Positions 52,013 to 57,432 of a stretch of DNA of 64,000 nt are shown one piece after another. The position numbers were made by a program, and so were the translations under genes. Each line of letters opens with the position of its first letter. Position 1 is the first letter of the stretch. Under the pieces are notes generated by a model. It was not told the origin of the DNA. It ran no database searches and worked only from the letters and a program-made list of their open reading frames with translations. Source of the DNA: Polaribacter dokdonensis (GTDB lineage: Bacteria; Bacteroidota; Bacteroidia; Flavobacteriales; Flavobacteriaceae); the NCBI RefSeq assembly GCF_024362345.1, contig NZ_CP101505.1:3023454-3087453 (forward strand), read 5' to 3'.

Positions 52013-52912
52013 TTATTTTAGTTTGTTCTTCTTAGTGTGCAGTACAAACGTGGCATTAAAACCAAAGTGAAAGTTACCATCTTTAGCATTAAAATTATTT
52101 CTAGTTTGCGTAATAAAAGTATCTTCAGCAAAATTTCTAGCATTTGTCATTTGAAATTGGAGTAATAAATGACTTAACTCCCAATTAACGCCAACCATAA
52201 AGGCATTATAGGTTTCTATAGATTTTAAAGGATTTGCAACCAAATAATATTCAGAAACAATAGAGGCATGATTGCTAATTTTATGTCTACCACCAAAACC
52301 AATTGCAAATTGATTATTAGGGTCGTCTGTAGTGTCATTATTTTCTCTTCTTATATAAGTTGGCGCAATTTGTAATGATAAGTTAGCATTAAATTTTCTC
52401 GCAATTAAAACCTGACTTGTAAAAGAGTATTTATTTTCAGAGCTGCTAGGTTGATATAAATTAGAACTTGTATTTTCTAAAGATCTATGAGTAATGGTTT
52501 GCAATAAGGTAATGCTTAGAGGTCTTTTTTTATTTTGATGTAGTAATTTGTATTTTATAAAACCGTCTGCAATCTCATCATGATCTTCATAACCAATACC
52601 AAAGCTTAAAATATCTGTAAACGAATAAGTTAATCCATATCTTCTACTTACAACATCAGCTAAAAAACGTTGCCCTTCAAAATTAGGAATGTTCCAATAT
52701 CTATTATATAAAGAAATCTCTAAAGCACCCTTTTTTCTAGTTTCAACAGAATGACCTAACCCAATTCTAGTTGTTTTAAATGTGGCTATAGTATTTGTAG
52801 TTTCATCAGGAAACTCTTTATTTAATTGATTTAATAAATCTTGAGCAAATGAGTTGTAGTTGCTTAACAAGAAAAACAAAAAACCAAGTAGTGTTATTTT
52901 ATTATTCTTCAT
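52013..52912 (-). CDS. DUF5777 beta-barrel protein, leftward module copy
   Basis: The 299-residue product starts at the ATG at 52912 (MKNNKITLLGFLFFLL, signal peptide cut after SFAQ). The mature part opens with TFKTTRIGLGHSVETRKKGA, the DUF5777 marker, and continues as alternating amphipathic strands ending FGFNATFVLH, as for an outer membrane beta-barrel. It is the last gene of the leftward OB-YceI-DUF5777 operon, overlapping the YceI gene. Its paralog at 56566-57432 shares the T-R-I...GHSVE-R core. Function is unknown. Confidence 0.82.
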   Translation of the reverse strand: MKNNKITLLGFLFFLLSNYNSFAQDLLNQLNKEFPDETTNTIATFKTTRIGLGHSVETRKKGALEISLYNRYWNIPNFEGQRFLADVVSRRYGLTYSFTDILSFGIGYEDHDEIADGFIKYKLLHQNKKRPLSITLLQTITHRSLENTSSNLYQPSSSENKYSFTSQVLIARKFNANLSLQIAPTYIRRENNDTTDDPNNQFAIGFGGRHKISNHASIVSEYYLVANPLKSIETYNAFMVGVNWELSHLLLQFQMTNARNFAEDTFITQTRNNFNAKDGNFHFGFNATFVLHTKKNKLK

Positions 52913-53450
52913 AAGATTGGTATTTAAAATCAAAATTTACTAAAATAGTTTTGGCAATATTACTAGCTAGAATTGGTGGAATCTGAATTTGAAAATCATT
53001 TACATTTATTTTGAAGTCACCAAATATGTTATACTTGCCATTTATATTTTCAATATTAGCTTTAATTTCTACAGGTTTTGTAATTCCATGAATGGTTAAA
53101 TTACCACGAATAATTCTAGTTTGACTCTCTGTTTTACTAGCATCAAAATCTATGATAGTGCCTACAAAATTAGCTTTTGGATACATGTCAGACTCAATAT
53201 AAGCCTCATTAAAATGCTCATACATCAAATCTTTTTTAAATACAAAAGCACGCATTAACATGCTTATAGCAATTTCATTTTTATCAATATCTAAAATGCT
53301 TAAGACTTGGTTGTTTTTTGCTTCAATATTTTCTGCAGAAGTATAAGAGAAAAAAGTAACCTGACCTTGCCTAGCAATAAACTGATTTTTGTTTGTATCA
53401 GTTTTAGCTAAAGTCGCAAATAAAATCAGAAACAGTAATAATTTATTCAT
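52902..53450 (-). CDS. YceI-like lipid-binding protein, leftward module copy
   Basis: The 182-residue product has an N-terminal signal (MNKLLLFLILFATLA). The single lipocalin-like YceI domain shows GQVTFFSYTSAENIEAKNNQ, MYPKANFVGTIIDF and GNLTIHGITKPVEI. Structurally known YceI proteins bind polyisoprenoids or fatty-acid-like ligands in the periplasm. It overlaps both the DUF5777 gene (11 bases) and the OB-fold gene (8 bases). It is clearly paralogous to the gene at 56015, sharing NNQVLSI, EHFNE and ESD-YPKA. Confidence 0.87.
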   Translation of the reverse strand: MNKLLLFLILFATLAKTDTNKNQFIARQGQVTFFSYTSAENIEAKNNQVLSILDIDKNEIAISMLMRAFVFKKDLMYEHFNEAYIESDMYPKANFVGTIIDFDASKTESQTRIIRGNLTIHGITKPVEIKANIENINGKYNIFGDFKINVNDFQIQIPPILASNIAKTILVNFDFKYQSYEE

Positions 53451-53880
53451 TTGGTGTTAGTTCTATGGAACAATTTAGCAGAATTACATCTTTTAAAAAA
53501 CCTTTGCAAATACCTTTTACACGTATTTTTTGATTTTTTTGTACTTGATTAAATTCAGTCGTGAAATTAGGGTTAATATCGCAAATAATTCCAAAAGATT
53601 TATTTTTGCTGGCTAAAATAATGGTGTTTCTATTGTTTAATAGCGTAGTTTCCTCAACATAACCAGTAACTTCAATAATTTTTCCTGCATATATTTTATT
53701 TGATTTTTCTTCATCAATTAAATATGCATTAATAAGATCATTGGAATTTAAAACCAACTCAGGAACCTTATTTCTTAAATTTTCAGTTTGTACACTCTTA
53801 GCAGGGGTATAAGCATATTTAATTACAAACATTATTAATAATAATGCAGCTATAAAGAATATGTACTTTTTTGTTTTCAT
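53443..53880 (-). CDS. OB-fold (tRNA_anti-like) membrane-anchored protein, leftward copy
   Basis: The 145-residue product has an N-terminal membrane anchor (YIFFIAALLLIMFVIKYAY) and an OB-fold domain at about 60-140 with KIIEVTGYVEETTLLNN and KIRVKGICKGFLKDVILLNC. It matches the tRNA_anti-like family, in which the name reflects fold and not tRNA binding. The domain is expected outside the cytoplasm. It is the first gene of the leftward operon and is paralogous to 55592-56011 (shared VKGIC-G-L-DV). Confidence 0.82.
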   Translation of the reverse strand: MKTKKYIFFIAALLLIMFVIKYAYTPAKSVQTENLRNKVPELVLNSNDLINAYLIDEEKSNKIYAGKIIEVTGYVEETTLLNNRNTIILASKNKSFGIICDINPNFTTEFNQVQKNQKIRVKGICKGFLKDVILLNCSIELTPNE

Positions 53881-53929
53881 GCTCTTGCTAAATTAATAAG
53901 AATGTAAGTTTCTTATGTAAAAATTTAAG

Positions 53930-53960
53930 TAAAAAGGAAATATTAGCTTTAAAGCCGAAT
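53930..53960 (-). promoter_or_regulatory. Candidate LytTR operator upstream of the leftward module
   Basis: On the minus strand a proximal site TTTCCTTTTTA (53940-53930) is preceded, exactly 20 bases upstream, by a weaker ATTCGGCTTTA (53960-53950). The proximal site matches those upstream of the rightward module (TTTCCTNTTTA) at 10 of 11 positions, and the following CTTA is shared too. It lies 49 bases before the OB-fold start codon. Confidence 0.5.
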
Positions 53961-54014
53961 AAAATCTGAAGCTATAACTAAGAATAATATTATCTTGTTC
54001 ATTTTTAATATCAT

Positions 54015-55097
54015 ATGAAAAAAGACAAACTTTATTTATTTACTTTTATATCTATAGCACTTATTTTTCTTTTGGGATCCATTTTTATATCTCAATTTTT
54101 AATTAAGGCAAGTGCAAAGCAACTAATAGAAGTACAGGTTGAATCTGCAAAAAGAGAGGTGAATGAAATAGCAGATTTTATAAACTTTCAATTAGAGAAT
54201 GGTATTTCTAAACAGAATAGTATTGAAAGAATCCAGGAAAGCTTAGCAAATAGTAAGGCTGATACTTGGTTTATAAGCTTATTTAATTGGAGTGGAACTG
54301 AAGTTGCAAATCCTAATAAATTGAATGTTGGGCAACCTTTAAATTCTAATGAGAAATTGTTGGCTTCTTTGGTTGGGCAAAACTATTCAGATGAGTTTTA
54401 TGATATTTTAACGAGTAACACAGATGCCAAATCTGAGGTTATTTACATTTCTCCTGTTAAAAATTCTGATTTAATTGTAGCAGCCAATGTAGATATTAAA
54501 AATGTAAGAACTCAGTTATCGGTTTTAAAATCAGATTTTTATCTTATATTTTTTATAATGGGTATTTTAATAACGCTCCTAACATTTTTGGTAGTTCGTT
54601 ATTTAGGTAGTGCTTATGAAAAACACTTAGAAGCAAAATATGCTTCTCTTACTTCAGAAGTTTTAAATCTATCTAAACTAAATGCAGATTTAGTTTCTTA
54701 CAAAGAAAAAGTGGTTGAAGAGCCTGTTGTAAATAGTTCTGAAGATAATTTAGAACAGGAGAAAAAAAGAATTTTAACCTATATTAGAAACGAGTTAGTA
54801 CCTATTGCTATAGCAGATATTGCTTATGTTTATACAGAAAATACAATTACCTATGTAGTTTGTTTTGATGGTAAAAAATCTACAACCAATATGAGTTTAG
54901 ATGATATTTATAATAATTTCGATCCTACCTTATTCTTTAGAGCAAACAGACAATTTATTATAAGTATAGCTGCCATAGATAAGATTATTAAGTATGGTAA
55001 AAGTCAACTAAAAATACTTTTGCAATCTAAAACTTCTGAAGAAATAATTATAAGTAAAAATAAAGCAGCTGAGTTTAAGCAATGGCTAAATATGTAG
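54015..55097 (+). CDS. Membrane-bound sensor-regulator with LytTR DNA-binding domain
   Basis: The 360-residue one-component regulator has a membrane helix at about 6-30 and an extracytoplasmic sensor region at about 31-175 (Cache-like length, containing ADTWFISLFNWSGTEVANP). A second helix lies at about 178-198, a coiled linker at about 215-255, and a C-terminal LytTR domain at about 260-358 (IADIAYVYTENTITYVVCFD, FFRANRQFIISIAAIDKI). There is no kinase or receiver domain. It lies between two paralogous modules, each preceded by the same repeat pair, making it their likely activator. The signal sensed is unknown. Confidence 0.88.
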   Translation: MKKDKLYLFTFISIALIFLLGSIFISQFLIKASAKQLIEVQVESAKREVNEIADFINFQLENGISKQNSIERIQESLANSKADTWFISLFNWSGTEVANPNKLNVGQPLNSNEKLLASLVGQNYSDEFYDILTSNTDAKSEVIYISPVKNSDLIVAANVDIKNVRTQLSVLKSDFYLIFFIMGILITLLTFLVVRYLGSAYEKHLEAKYASLTSEVLNLSKLNADLVSYKEKVVEEPVVNSSEDNLEQEKKRILTYIRNELVPIAIADIAYVYTENTITYVVCFDGKKSTTNMSLDDIYNNFDPTLFFRANRQFIISIAAIDKIIKYGKSQLKILLQSKTSEEIIISKNKAAEFKQWLNM

Positions 55098-55134
55098 TTT
55101 TTTGTCTGAACTAGTGTTTTTTTGATGGCTAATT

Positions 55135-55165
55135 TTTCCTGTTTAAGCATTTTATTTCCTCTTTA
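55135..55165 (+). promoter_or_regulatory. Candidate LytTR operator upstream of the rightward module
   Basis: Two direct copies, TTTCCTGTTTA (55135-55145) and TTTCCTCTTTA (55155-55165), 10 of 11 identical and exactly 20 bases apart, about two helical turns. The second ends 30 bases before the putative -7 box at 55196. LytTR regulators bind paired direct repeats with this sort of spacing. Assignment to this regulator is inference. Confidence 0.6.
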
Positions 55166-55195
55166 CTTACTCTTCTGAATCATTTTTAAATATAA

Positions 55196-55203
55196 TATGT
55201 TTA
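55196..55203 (+). promoter_or_regulatory. Possible -7 box of the rightward module
   Basis: TATGTTTA matches TAnnTTTG at all but the last base, 26 bases before the ATG at 55230. It covers an upstream in-frame ATG (55197), which argues that translation starts at 55230. No TTG is seen at -33, fitting an activator-dependent promoter. Confidence 0.4.
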
Positions 55204-55229
55204 ATTTACTGTCAAATAAAATAACCAAC

Positions 55230-55586
55230 ATGAAATTATTTATCAAATTAAAAACGACTTTACCTTTAGTTTGTATCTCGCTTTTTTTTATGTCTTGTTT
55301 AACAAATGTAGAAGAGCCTATTGTAGATGAAAATCCAAATGTAGATCCTTGCTCAACAATTACCTATTCAGCAAATATTAAATCTATTATAGATATTAAT
55401 TGTGTACAATGCCATGGAAATGGAGGTAATTTTCCAGATTTAACTACGTATGAAAATACAAGGGCTAATGCAGATTTGGTAAAAGCAGAAACACAAAGTA
55501 GAAGAATGCCTCAAGGAAGCTCTTTAACAAATACTGAAATTGAAGCGATTGCTTGTTGGGTAGATGCAGGAGCTTTAAATAACTAG
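55230..55586 (+). CDS. Monohaem c-type cytochrome lipoprotein
   Basis: The 118-residue product starts at the ATG at 55230. A signal peptide with lipobox ends FFMSC (Cys near residue 24). A short acidic linker leads to a single haem-binding CxxCH (NCVQCHGNGG, near residue 68). A possible axial Met lies in RRMPQGSS, and the end is ACWVDAGA, a class I-like layout. The haem is attached in the periplasm. It is the first gene of the rightward module and is absent from the leftward one. It should donate or accept one electron; no oxidase or dehydrogenase gene is adjacent. Confidence 0.85.
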   Translation: MKLFIKLKTTLPLVCISLFFMSCLTNVEEPIVDENPNVDPCSTITYSANIKSIIDINCVQCHGNGGNFPDLTTYENTRANADLVKAETQSRRMPQGSSLTNTEIEAIACWVDAGALNN

Positions 55587-55591
55587 ATGCT

Positions 55592-56011
55592 ATGAAGTTT
55601 AAAAAAATAGTTTTACCATTAATTTTACTTTCTGTAGGTATTGCAATTGTTGCTTATAACGTTTATAACAAACCACACATAGATGTTGTAGATGCGAAAG
55701 CAGATGTTTTAGTAACAGCAGAAAACTTATTTACAGAATTCTCTACAGATGAAGCTACTGCAAATGCTGAATATTTAGATAAAATTATTCAGGTTAAAGG
55801 TATTGTGCAAAAGTTAGAAATAGAGAATGGGATAGGTATTGTAACCTTGAAAACAGAAGATGATTTTGGCTCTGTACAATGCAATCTCTCTACAGAAGCT
55901 AAAAATGATTTTAACGTGCTAAAAGAGAATGAATTGGTAACTATAAAAGGTATTTGTACAGGTTATCTAATGGATGTTGTTTTAGTAAAATCAGAAATTG
56001 TAAATCAATAA
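55592..56011 (+). CDS. OB-fold (tRNA_anti-like) membrane-anchored protein, rightward copy
   Basis: The 139-residue product has an N-terminal anchor (FKKIVLPLILLSVGIAIVAY) and an OB domain at about 55-135 with KIIQVKGIVQKLEIENG and VTIKGICTGYLMDVVLV. It is a paralog of 53443-53880. It lies 5 bases after the cytochrome gene and 3 before the YceI gene, so they are a single operon. Confidence 0.82.
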   Translation: MKFKKIVLPLILLSVGIAIVAYNVYNKPHIDVVDAKADVLVTAENLFTEFSTDEATANAEYLDKIIQVKGIVQKLEIENGIGIVTLKTEDDFGSVQCNLSTEAKNDFNVLKENELVTIKGICTGYLMDVVLVKSEIVNQ

Positions 56012-56014
56012 ATT

Positions 56015-56560
56015 ATGAAATCAATTATAACCATATTTTGTATTTGCTTTTGTTTATCAACTGTAAATTCTCAAGATCGCTATTTTACAAAAAGCGGTGC
56101 TATCAACTTTTTTTCTAAAGCGCCTTTAGAAGATATTACTGCAGATAATAATCAGGTACTTAGTATTATAGATGCTTCTAATTCTAAAATGGCTATTTCT
56201 ATTTTAATGAAGTCTTTTTTGTTTGATAAAGCATTAATGCAAGAACATTTTAATGAAAACTATGTTGAATCAGATAAATATCCCAAGGCTACATTTAAAG
56301 GGGAAATATTAGATTTTAATACACTTTCTGAAGATCTTAAAGAATTTAAAGTTAAAGGTGTAATAAATATTCATGGTGTTTCTAAAGATATTGTTGTTAT
56401 TGCAACAATGAATAAAGTAAATAATACTATAACTGCTGTTGGTAATTTTATAATTAATCTAGAAGATTTTGACGTTGAAATTCCTGCTGTAGTTGCAAAA
56501 AATATAGCAAAGAATATTAAAGTAACTTTTAACTTTAAGCATACACCATTTAAAAAATAA
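56015..56560 (+). CDS. YceI-like lipid-binding protein, rightward copy
   Basis: The 181-residue product has a signal peptide (MKSIITIFCICFCLSTVNSQ) and a YceI domain with GAINFFSKAPLEDITADNNQ, KYPKATFKGEILDF and GVINIHGVSKDIVV. It is paralogous to 52902-53450. It probably binds a hydrophobic ligand in the periplasm. Gaps to the neighbours are 3 and 5 bases. Confidence 0.87.
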   Translation: MKSIITIFCICFCLSTVNSQDRYFTKSGAINFFSKAPLEDITADNNQVLSIIDASNSKMAISILMKSFLFDKALMQEHFNENYVESDKYPKATFKGEILDFNTLSEDLKEFKVKGVINIHGVSKDIVVIATMNKVNNTITAVGNFIINLEDFDVEIPAVVAKNIAKNIKVTFNFKHTPFKK

Positions 56561-56565
56561 TACCA

Positions 56566-57432
56566 ATGAAAAATATTCTAACCACACTTTGTTTCCTTTT
56601 TTTAAGTTCATTTAGTTTCGCCCAAGATGATTTATTAGATATTTTAGATGATGAAAATACAGAAACAGATCAATCTATAGTAACTTCAACTTTTAAAGGA
56701 ACACGTATTATTAATGGGCATTCTGTAGAAAATAGAAAGGATAGTGAACTAGAGTTTATTATTTCTCATAGATTTGGACGAATAAATTCTGGGTTTTATG
56801 ATTTGTTTGGTTTAGATAATTCAAACATTCGATTTTCATTAGAATATGGTTTAACAGACGATTTAACCATTGGTGCAGGTAGAAGTAGTTTTGAAAAAAC
56901 TTATGATGGTTTTCTAAAATATAGTTTGTTCAAGCAAAAAACAGGCGCAAAATCATTTCCGTTTGCAATTTCATTATTTAGCAGCATTGCTGTAAAAACA
57001 TTAAAAGATTATGATCCAGATGATAAAAGAACATTTGCAGAAAGTTTGTCTTATGTGTCACAAGTTTTAATTGCTAGAAAGGTTAGTTCATCTTTTTCGT
57101 ATCAAGTAACTCCTACTTATATTCATAGAAATACAGTAAGTATTGCAGAAGATCCTCATGATATTTTTGCACTAGGTTTTGGTTCTAGAATTAAAGTAAG
57201 CAAAAGAGTATCTATAAATGGTGAGTATTTTTATGCTTTTGATAAATCAACCTCAATAAATGCAAGAAATTCTTTAGCATTTGGTGTTGATATAGAAACA
57301 GGGGGTCATGTATTTCAATTGATATTATCAAATGCAATTACAATGATTGAAAAAAGTTTTATTGCAGAAACTACTGGAGATTTCTTTGGTGGAGATATCC
57401 ATTTTGGATTCAATATTTCTAGAACTTTTTAA
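56566..57432 (+). CDS. DUF5777 beta-barrel protein, rightward copy
   Basis: The 288-residue product has a signal peptide (MKNILTTLCFLFLSSFSFAQ) and an acidic linker (DDLLDILDDENTET). The DUF5777 marker TFKGTRIINGHSVENRKDSE is followed by amphipathic strands ending HFGFNISRTF, with a terminal Phe as in outer membrane barrels. It is a paralog of 52013-52912. It is the last gene of the rightward operon, with its stop abutting the convergent prmC stop; I see no clear terminator between them. Confidence 0.83.
   Translation: MKNILTTLCFLFLSSFSFAQDDLLDILDDENTETDQSIVTSTFKGTRIINGHSVENRKDSELEFIISHRFGRINSGFYDLFGLDNSNIRFSLEYGLTDDLTIGAGRSSFEKTYDGFLKYSLFKQKTGAKSFPFAISLFSSIAVKTLKDYDPDDKRTFAESLSYVSQVLIARKVSSSFSYQVTPTYIHRNTVSIAEDPHDIFALGFGSRIKVSKRVSINGEYFYAFDKSTSINARNSLAFGVDIETGGHVFQLILSNAITMIEKSFIAETTGDFFGGDIHFGFNISRTF

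Follow-up and report, generated by a model that had tools for sequence, protein, structure and literature searches.

In a 64,000-nucleotide stretch of the Polaribacter dokdonensis genome (contig NZ_CP101505.1, positions 3,023,454 to 3,087,453; hereafter the window), a gene for a predicted transmembrane sensor with a LytTR DNA-binding domain lies between two divergent gene modules, each encoding an OB-fold protein, a YceI lipocalin and a DUF5777 outer-membrane barrel. The reading that we favor, on balance, is that of a one-component regulon controlling envelope redox modules. The architecture of the modules and of the regulon is, judging from sequence comparison, very probably as described here; the biochemical role of the modules, in envelope redox and lipid shuttling, is proposed tentatively and by analogy.

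Module A runs leftward on the minus strand and consists of a membrane-anchored OB-fold (tRNA_anti-like) gene (53443–53880, the anchor being read from a hydrophobic N-terminus), a YceI gene (52902–53450) and a DUF5777 gene (52013–52912), which as read from the sequence probably starts at the ATG at 52912 and overlaps the YceI gene by 11 nt. Module B runs rightward on the plus strand and begins with a gene for a mono-haem (CVQCH) cytochrome c lipoprotein (55197–55586, with the ATG at 55230 as the probable start, again read from the sequence), followed by membrane-anchored OB-fold (55592–56011), YceI (56015–56560) and DUF5777 (56566–57432) genes. Open reading frames are present at all of these coordinates, and the divergent layout around a LytTR gene, together with the cytochrome of the rightward set, stands as it had been proposed in an original prediction made from the sequence alone.

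Family assignments are those of Pfam: the two DUF5777 copies match PF19089 at 228.4 and 324.1 bits (curated cut-off 23.1), while the YceI copies (PF04264, 56.1 and 60.9 bits), the OB-fold copies (tRNA_anti-like, 121 and 117 bits) and the sensor (LytTR, 66 bits) all score over their cut-offs, as does the cytochrome (Cytochrome_CBB3, 28.9 bits, cut-off 27). The three pairs are indeed paralogs, with BLASTP identities between A and B of 37% for DUF5777, 40% for YceI and 27% for the OB-fold protein. The shared motifs GHSVE-R, NNQVLSI and YPKA were all found in the sequence, and the OB-fold motif VKGIC-G is present too, its exact form being [VI]KGIC-G. There are no DUF5777 matches beyond these two in the 3.09 Mb host genome (a single contig of 3,087,453 bases). 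Because 15 of the 58 genus-sample genomes, the window counted, have the twin arrangement, it is not a product of chance.

Operator and sensor

Upstream of both modules stands a putative LytTR-type operator, the direct repeat TTCCYYTT-N12/13-TTCCYYTT. It reads TTCGGCTT-N12-TTCCTTTT on the minus strand at 53932–53959, 52 bp before the OB-fold gene of module A, and TTCCTGTT-N12-TTCCTCTT on the plus strand at 55136–55163, 67 bp before the ATG at 55230. Genus alignments of the gaps between OB-fold gene and sensor, and between sensor and cytochrome gene, contain the same repeat on opposite strands. When up to three mismatches are allowed, the window alone holds six matches, of which the two best are the two operators; 1.42 would be expected, and six were reached in 2 of 100 shuffles. 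Across 947 kb (loci L032–L091 and the window), the pair AARRGGAA...AARRGGAA occurs 40 times at gaps of 11–13 bp and four times at all other gaps of 2–39 bp. More independent is the count made outside the genus, in 58 named loci (1.02 Mb) that remained when ten same-genus loci and four recognized duplicates had been left out, and that may still contain duplicates: there the strict pair occurs 14 times at gaps of 11–13 bp versus six times at other gaps of 2–40 bp. Relaxed half-sites gave 27 matches at gaps of 11–13 bp, 23 of them intergenic and four in genes, and 21 of the 23 are followed by a gene in the same orientation at a distance of 54–182 bp. The genes behind these intergenic sites mostly encode an OB-fold protein, a cytochrome or P460 protein, or a cargo lipoprotein, and the genus and family sites are similar in this respect.

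In the genus, a TTACTTT box (8 of 15 B-side regions) or a TTTCTTTG/TTACTTTG-like box (11 of 20 A-side regions) follows about 35 bp downstream of the repeats. We take these boxes to resemble the Bacteroidetes -7 element; the exact form of neither occurs in the window. It is this placement of the repeats ahead of a -7-like box that suggests that the sensor may activate rather than repress. The loose operator pattern finds no match in 2 of the 15 B-side and 5 of the 20 A-side regions. Its gap of 11–13 bp agrees with the spacing described for LytTR sites, which are 9-bp repeats set 10–13 bp apart, mostly 12 (excerpts of PMC11347149 and PMC6193735).

The sensor itself (54015–55097, plus strand) carries the LytTR domain and, by prediction, a Cache/PAS-like extracytoplasmic domain, in that two long helices with hydrophobic stretches (residues 3–61 and 161–235) are predicted to flank an alpha/beta domain. 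It adjoins a module in 20 of 20 sensor-bearing genomes of the genus and is absent from all 19 genomes of the genus that lack DUF5777. Beyond the genus, a DUF5777 gene stands beside it in 22 of 25 full-length family loci, the window counted, and in 51 of 72 named loci, some of them from the same genomes (80 loci less eight, L258–L265, with a LytTR-domain match alone). The closest named sensor loci are from Polaribacter and Tenacibaculum. With the operator shared and the adjacency constant, the predicted link between regulator and modules appears to hold. Deep relatives of the sensor (L226, L229, L235, L239, L247 and L251) lie divergent to genes for Haem_bd/P460-type proteins and a lipoprotein of 156–181 aa, the L226 copy of which scores slightly below the P460 cut-off.

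Targets outside the locus

The original prediction had the regulator acting on adjacent operons; the predicted regulon extends outside the locus. The recurring predicted target is the gene for a 255–260 aa CxxCH protein, whose copy in the window genome combines a Reeler domain with a type IX secretion tail and lies 2 Mb from the modules. Reeler orthologs, a set drawn independently of the motif, were found in 25 of the 58 genus genomes. Nine of 12 sensor-bearing genomes, versus none of 13 sensor-less ones, have a site scoring at least 15/16 before the gene (p=1e-4, kinship ignored). The misses at this cut-off are G434 (14), G446 (13) and G397 (11), and other spacings scored up to 14/16 in those genomes. 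Five of the Reeler genes with a site are far from the modules (G000, G399, G421, G438, G409), two are 10–14 kb off (G395, G439) and two are within 3 kb (G398, G418). That the gene belongs to the module system has independent support, because in sensor-less relatives (L047–L049, L051 and L076) it sits within the DUF5777 operon.

In the host genome, a slightly longer form of the pattern with at most two mismatches matches 20 times, versus five for the reversed control. Thirteen of the 20 matches are in genes and two are intergenic with no nearby gene. The intergenic sites within 150 bp of a start precede the genes for a 140-aa lipoprotein, the module B cytochrome, the module A OB-fold protein, the Reeler protein and a FabG-like protein, the last of which, 31 bp behind a site with two mismatches, is probably a chance occurrence; the operator thus stands before four transcription units and one doubtful one. 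In two closely related genomes the gene for the 140-aa lipoprotein (L142:3576–3998 in the host genome; also L145, from G434) is preceded by the operator at a distance of 70 bp, and the host-genome copy has no Pfam match.

Twenty of the 70 strict matches in sensor-bearing genus genomes, all outside module regions and chosen by eye for their likeness to the consensus, were inspected. Six fall in genes (L144, L148, L149, L151, L157, L159) and one has no target (L160). The remainder precede the Reeler gene (six), the 140-aa lipoprotein gene (two), genes for TonB_C proteins (two), an LTD lipoprotein gene (one), an ankyrin gene with a DOMON gene behind it (one) and, in L147, the gene for a 298-aa protein that is apparently not exported (one). 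The TonB_C-type proteins, of 213 and 217 aa, come from two sensor-bearing genomes (L153 and L156), and the first was scanned. In a distant locus, a relaxed operator stands 66 bp upstream of a pair of genes (L251:5966–7175) encoding a lipoprotein-like MsrA (PMSR) and a SelR-domain MsrB, which together repair oxidized methionine; the pair adjoins a sensor gene and a P460-type gene.

Descent and distribution of the modules

We mapped 100 modules in the fetched regions, and the 83 that contained OB-fold, YceI and DUF5777 genes were used for three gene trees. The trees are concordant, with distance correlations of 0.87–0.91 against a maximum of 0.15 in 500 permutations, so the phylogenies of the three pairs agree and are not unrelated. 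Exact clades in all three are formed by module A (35 modules, an operon without cytochrome), by the genus A set (19) and the genus B set (16), and by a type that we call S (gene order CYT-YceI-OB-DUF5777, 15 modules). Support is 0.95–1.0 for A; in the OB tree genus B reaches just 0.64 and S 0.86. L068, without an upstream cytochrome gene, yet groups with B and carries a cytochrome gene behind its DUF5777 gene. Modules A and B of the window are 2.6–3.3 substitutions per site apart, and each is 0.08–0.33 from its closest orthologs. Duplication of the twins as a block had been raised as a question with the original prediction; these separate and concordant clades reject a recent event of this kind. 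A and B are long-separated lineages, and the genes of each have been passed on together.

All 35 A modules are sensor-linked, with a bias in the family part, where loci were fetched via the sensor. Within the genus the regions of all 59 DUF5777 matches, the window among them, were examined: 19 are of type A, and 19 of 19 adjoin the sensor. Seven of these loci, all from sensor-less genomes, have no A module and are S-like where the order was readable. S-type modules have the operator in two of five cases in sensor-bearing genomes of the genus (L085 and L088; not L079, L080 or L091) and in none of 13 in sensor-less ones, as counted with slightly different loose patterns; this match of operator and sensor is suggestive only. 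In L187, two DUF5777 reading frames follow one another within one module, perhaps through a frameshift.

Of 395 genomes sampled across the class, 343 have DUF5777; the corresponding figures are 96 of 199 for a family sample and 39 of 58 for the genus sample. At class level we looked at 20 loci from 19 genomes, a non-random set taken from the top of the match list and from matches with long reading frames. On the same strand and within 4 kb of DUF5777, these have a cytochrome c gene in 20 of 20 loci, a YceI gene in 18 and an OB-fold gene in 13, a near-constant co-occurrence for which no formal expectation was computed. Since the cytochrome stands beside DUF5777 in every one of the 20, we regard it as a core component and reject a late addition; the original prediction had it as something that the rightward copy adds. 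DUF5777 also tracks haem-copper oxidase, being found in 339 of 376 COX1-bearing versus 4 of 19 COX1-less genomes of the class sample (p=2e-11), a comparison that supports a link between the modules and oxygen-respiring genomes. A 253–255 aa regulator with a LytTR domain is encoded just upstream of distant cytochrome-YceI-DUF5777 operons in three of the 20 loci (L103, L110 and L111), and LytTR control may, on the strength of these loci, have arisen more than once.

What accompanies the modules varies. OB-fold, YceI and DUF5777 genes are constant, and the cargo slot holds a cytochrome, PF03640, CHRD, LTD or cupredoxin protein; neighbors and targets of the modules are haem, copper or surface proteins. 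Of 28 lipobox-bearing cargo lipoproteins, 26 have an acidic pair right after the cysteine, a feature that resembles surface-export signals known from the phylum. In the genus, 18 of 19 A modules are without a cargo gene; only L037 has one. Directly behind DUF5777, 12 of 15 loci (L052 and L197 being one genome) encode a 75–157 aa, mostly CxxC, HMA-like protein (for example L056:11194–11466, L058:4517–4891 and L207:6316–6570); three of four that were scanned had HMA matches, all under the Pfam cut-off. Elsewhere in the genus a 140-aa gene stands in this position (L032:4246–4668, L037:11869–12291 and others), not in the window, and its L032 copy is 4HBT_2 thioesterase-like.

Proposed function and alternatives

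In the mechanism that we envisage, the LytTR domain of the sensor would bind TTCCNNTT-N12/13-TTCCNNTT direct repeats upstream of promoters and would activate module A (OB-YceI-DUF5777), module B (cytochrome c-OB-YceI-DUF5777) and further genes whose products are exported; chief among these would be the gene for the Reeler/CxxCH protein, a predicted substrate of type IX secretion. The YceI lipocalin would ferry a lipid of isoprenoid or quinone type across the periplasm, and electrons would be exchanged by the mono-haem cytochrome. The OB-fold protein would tether this process to the inner membrane, whereas the DUF5777 barrel would connect it with the outer membrane and with surface proteins that are interchangeable between loci (haem, copper, CHRD, LTD or PF03640 proteins). 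Electron or quinone handling had already been suggested in the original prediction; we infer the same, and add a link to oxygen respiration. YceI lipocalins hold ubiquinone-8 or isoprenoids, and one of them, BcnA, protects from lipid peroxidation (excerpts of PMC9113575). By analogy with BcnA and its partner LcoA, the likeliest use of the modules would be to keep envelope lipids or quinones reduced under oxygen.

Several observations weigh against the favored reading. The operator counts within the genus are partly circular, the consensus having first been read from the genus alignment; relaxed half-sites outside the genus also match 19 times at other gaps; and the module A operator in the window has two mismatches. 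Genus-wide, the strict pattern matches 70 times in 20 sensor-bearing and 50 times in 38 sensor-less genomes, but the reversed control rises as well (38 matches versus 33, p=0.004; for site minus reversed control, p=0.047), and we rejected genome-wide site counts as weak proof of a regulon. Sensor-bearing and sensor-less genomes are phylogenetically non-independent, and the COX1-less genomes cluster, 9 of 19 being in two families. No DUF5777 gene adjoins the sensor in three of the 25 loci from the family or in 21 of the 72 named ones, and 17 of these 21 have a haem-protein neighbor instead, P460-type where scanned; since such loci mostly adjoin haem proteins, the signal may be something other than lipid stress. 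The quinone ligand is assigned only by family analogy, because the rightward YceI has no PDB sequence relative at E 0.01 and no cytochrome b561 is among the window's eight genes. The weak reversed control and the MsrA-MsrB case pull in opposite directions here.

A wider form of the proposal, and a doubtful one, is an envelope redox pathway of aerobic Bacteroidia that would extend through nearly the whole class; in it, a lipocalin-borne redox lipid would connect the inner membrane through mono-haem cytochrome, OB-fold protein and DUF5777 barrel to interchangeable extracellular haem and copper proteins. In Flavobacteriaceae, the cytochrome-free module A would have been captured by a Cache-LytTR sensor that monitors the envelope and controls the entire set, both in cis and in trans. 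It seems unlikely that the modules form instead a transenvelope electron conduit, in which periplasmic carriers would take electrons from the inner membrane to haem and copper proteins at the surface, and these in turn would reduce metals, oxidants or other acceptors outside the cell. Such a conduit would suit the haem, cupredoxin, DOMON, Reeler and P460 proteins that share the operator or a module, as well as the acidic pair of the cargo lipoproteins, but the window cytochrome is mono-haem, there is no multihaem protein to thread a 12-strand barrel, and the association is with oxygen respiration and not with its absence.

Less likely again is a dedicated export or assembly path, with YceI, OB-fold protein and DUF5777 barrel as chaperone and outer-membrane partner for the adjacent surface lipoprotein. 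The changing cargo beside an unchanging core would fit, and in the model of the rightward DUF5777 protein (a 12-strand barrel, pLDDT 88) FapF and autotransporter barrels are among the structural neighbors. This fold similarity is unspecific and says nothing of the substrate, though, and the rightward DUF5777 protein has no PDB sequence relative at E 1; the rightward OB-fold protein likewise gave only chance-level PDB matches (best E 0.16). Module A, moreover, is mostly cargo-less, and the known ligands of YceI proteins are lipids and small hydrophobic molecules (excerpts of PMC9113575). A response to nitrogen oxides or copper, in which the sensor would detect nitrosative or copper stress and P460-type haem and HMA-like proteins would be the effectors, we consider improbable: deep sensor relatives adjoin Haem_bd and Cytochrome_P460 proteins, the HMA-like gene lies behind many S-type modules and cupredoxins are among the likely operator targets, but no P460 gene is among the window's eight, the HMA matches are weak and no HMA-like gene was noticed in the genus twin maps. 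A recent tandem duplication without special regulation can be rejected with near certainty, for the gene order is identical on both sides but each of the three trees resolves A and B as exact, old clades, and the copies are only 27–40% identical and have an operator in common.

With the one-component regulon as the preferred reading, the locus offers a way into function: the operator is defined, there is only one regulator, and the regulon predicted for one genome is short. The core operon occurs in most of the sampled oxygen-respiring relatives, within a major marine, soil and host-associated group, seemingly without an assigned function.

Relation to known systems

That no named system has this composition, as the original prediction put it, agrees with the paper library that we searched, in which none was found, and a literature search of listings and abstract openings returned no paper under the name DUF5777 or under "choice-of-anchor V"; the module set seems to be undescribed so far. 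The known barrels closest to DUF5777 are KdgM/NanC porins, FapF and a COG4313 channel, all with solved structures; the rightward DUF5777 protein has no PDB sequence relative at E 1. MtrCAB-type conduits combine a multihaem cytochrome with a large barrel, whereas the window cytochrome has one CxxCH and the barrel 12 strands.

Other likenesses are found on the regulatory side. As described in excerpts of PMC6193735, the LytTR Regulatory Systems (LRS) also place repeats 11–13 bp apart just before a promoter, but they have a separate membrane inhibitor, whereas here sensor and LytTR domain are one polypeptide and no inhibitor gene is among the window's eight. CoxC and RcoM, in excerpts of PMC11347149, resemble our sensor in the fusion of a sensor to LytTR and, for RcoM, in direct repeats about 12–13 bp apart; CoxC differs in its MHYT sensor, its three repeats and its action as a repressor, as opposed to a Cache/PAS-like sensor, two repeats and suggested activation. 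For the modules, a close counterpart is BcnA-LcoA of Burkholderia, in which, according to excerpts of PMC9113575, a YceI lipocalin and a redox haem protein of the envelope are likewise encoded in one Gram-negative operon. The haem protein is a cytochrome b561 there, of which the eight genes here include none; its place is taken by a c-type cytochrome, joined by an OB-fold protein, an outer-membrane barrel and a LytTR regulator.

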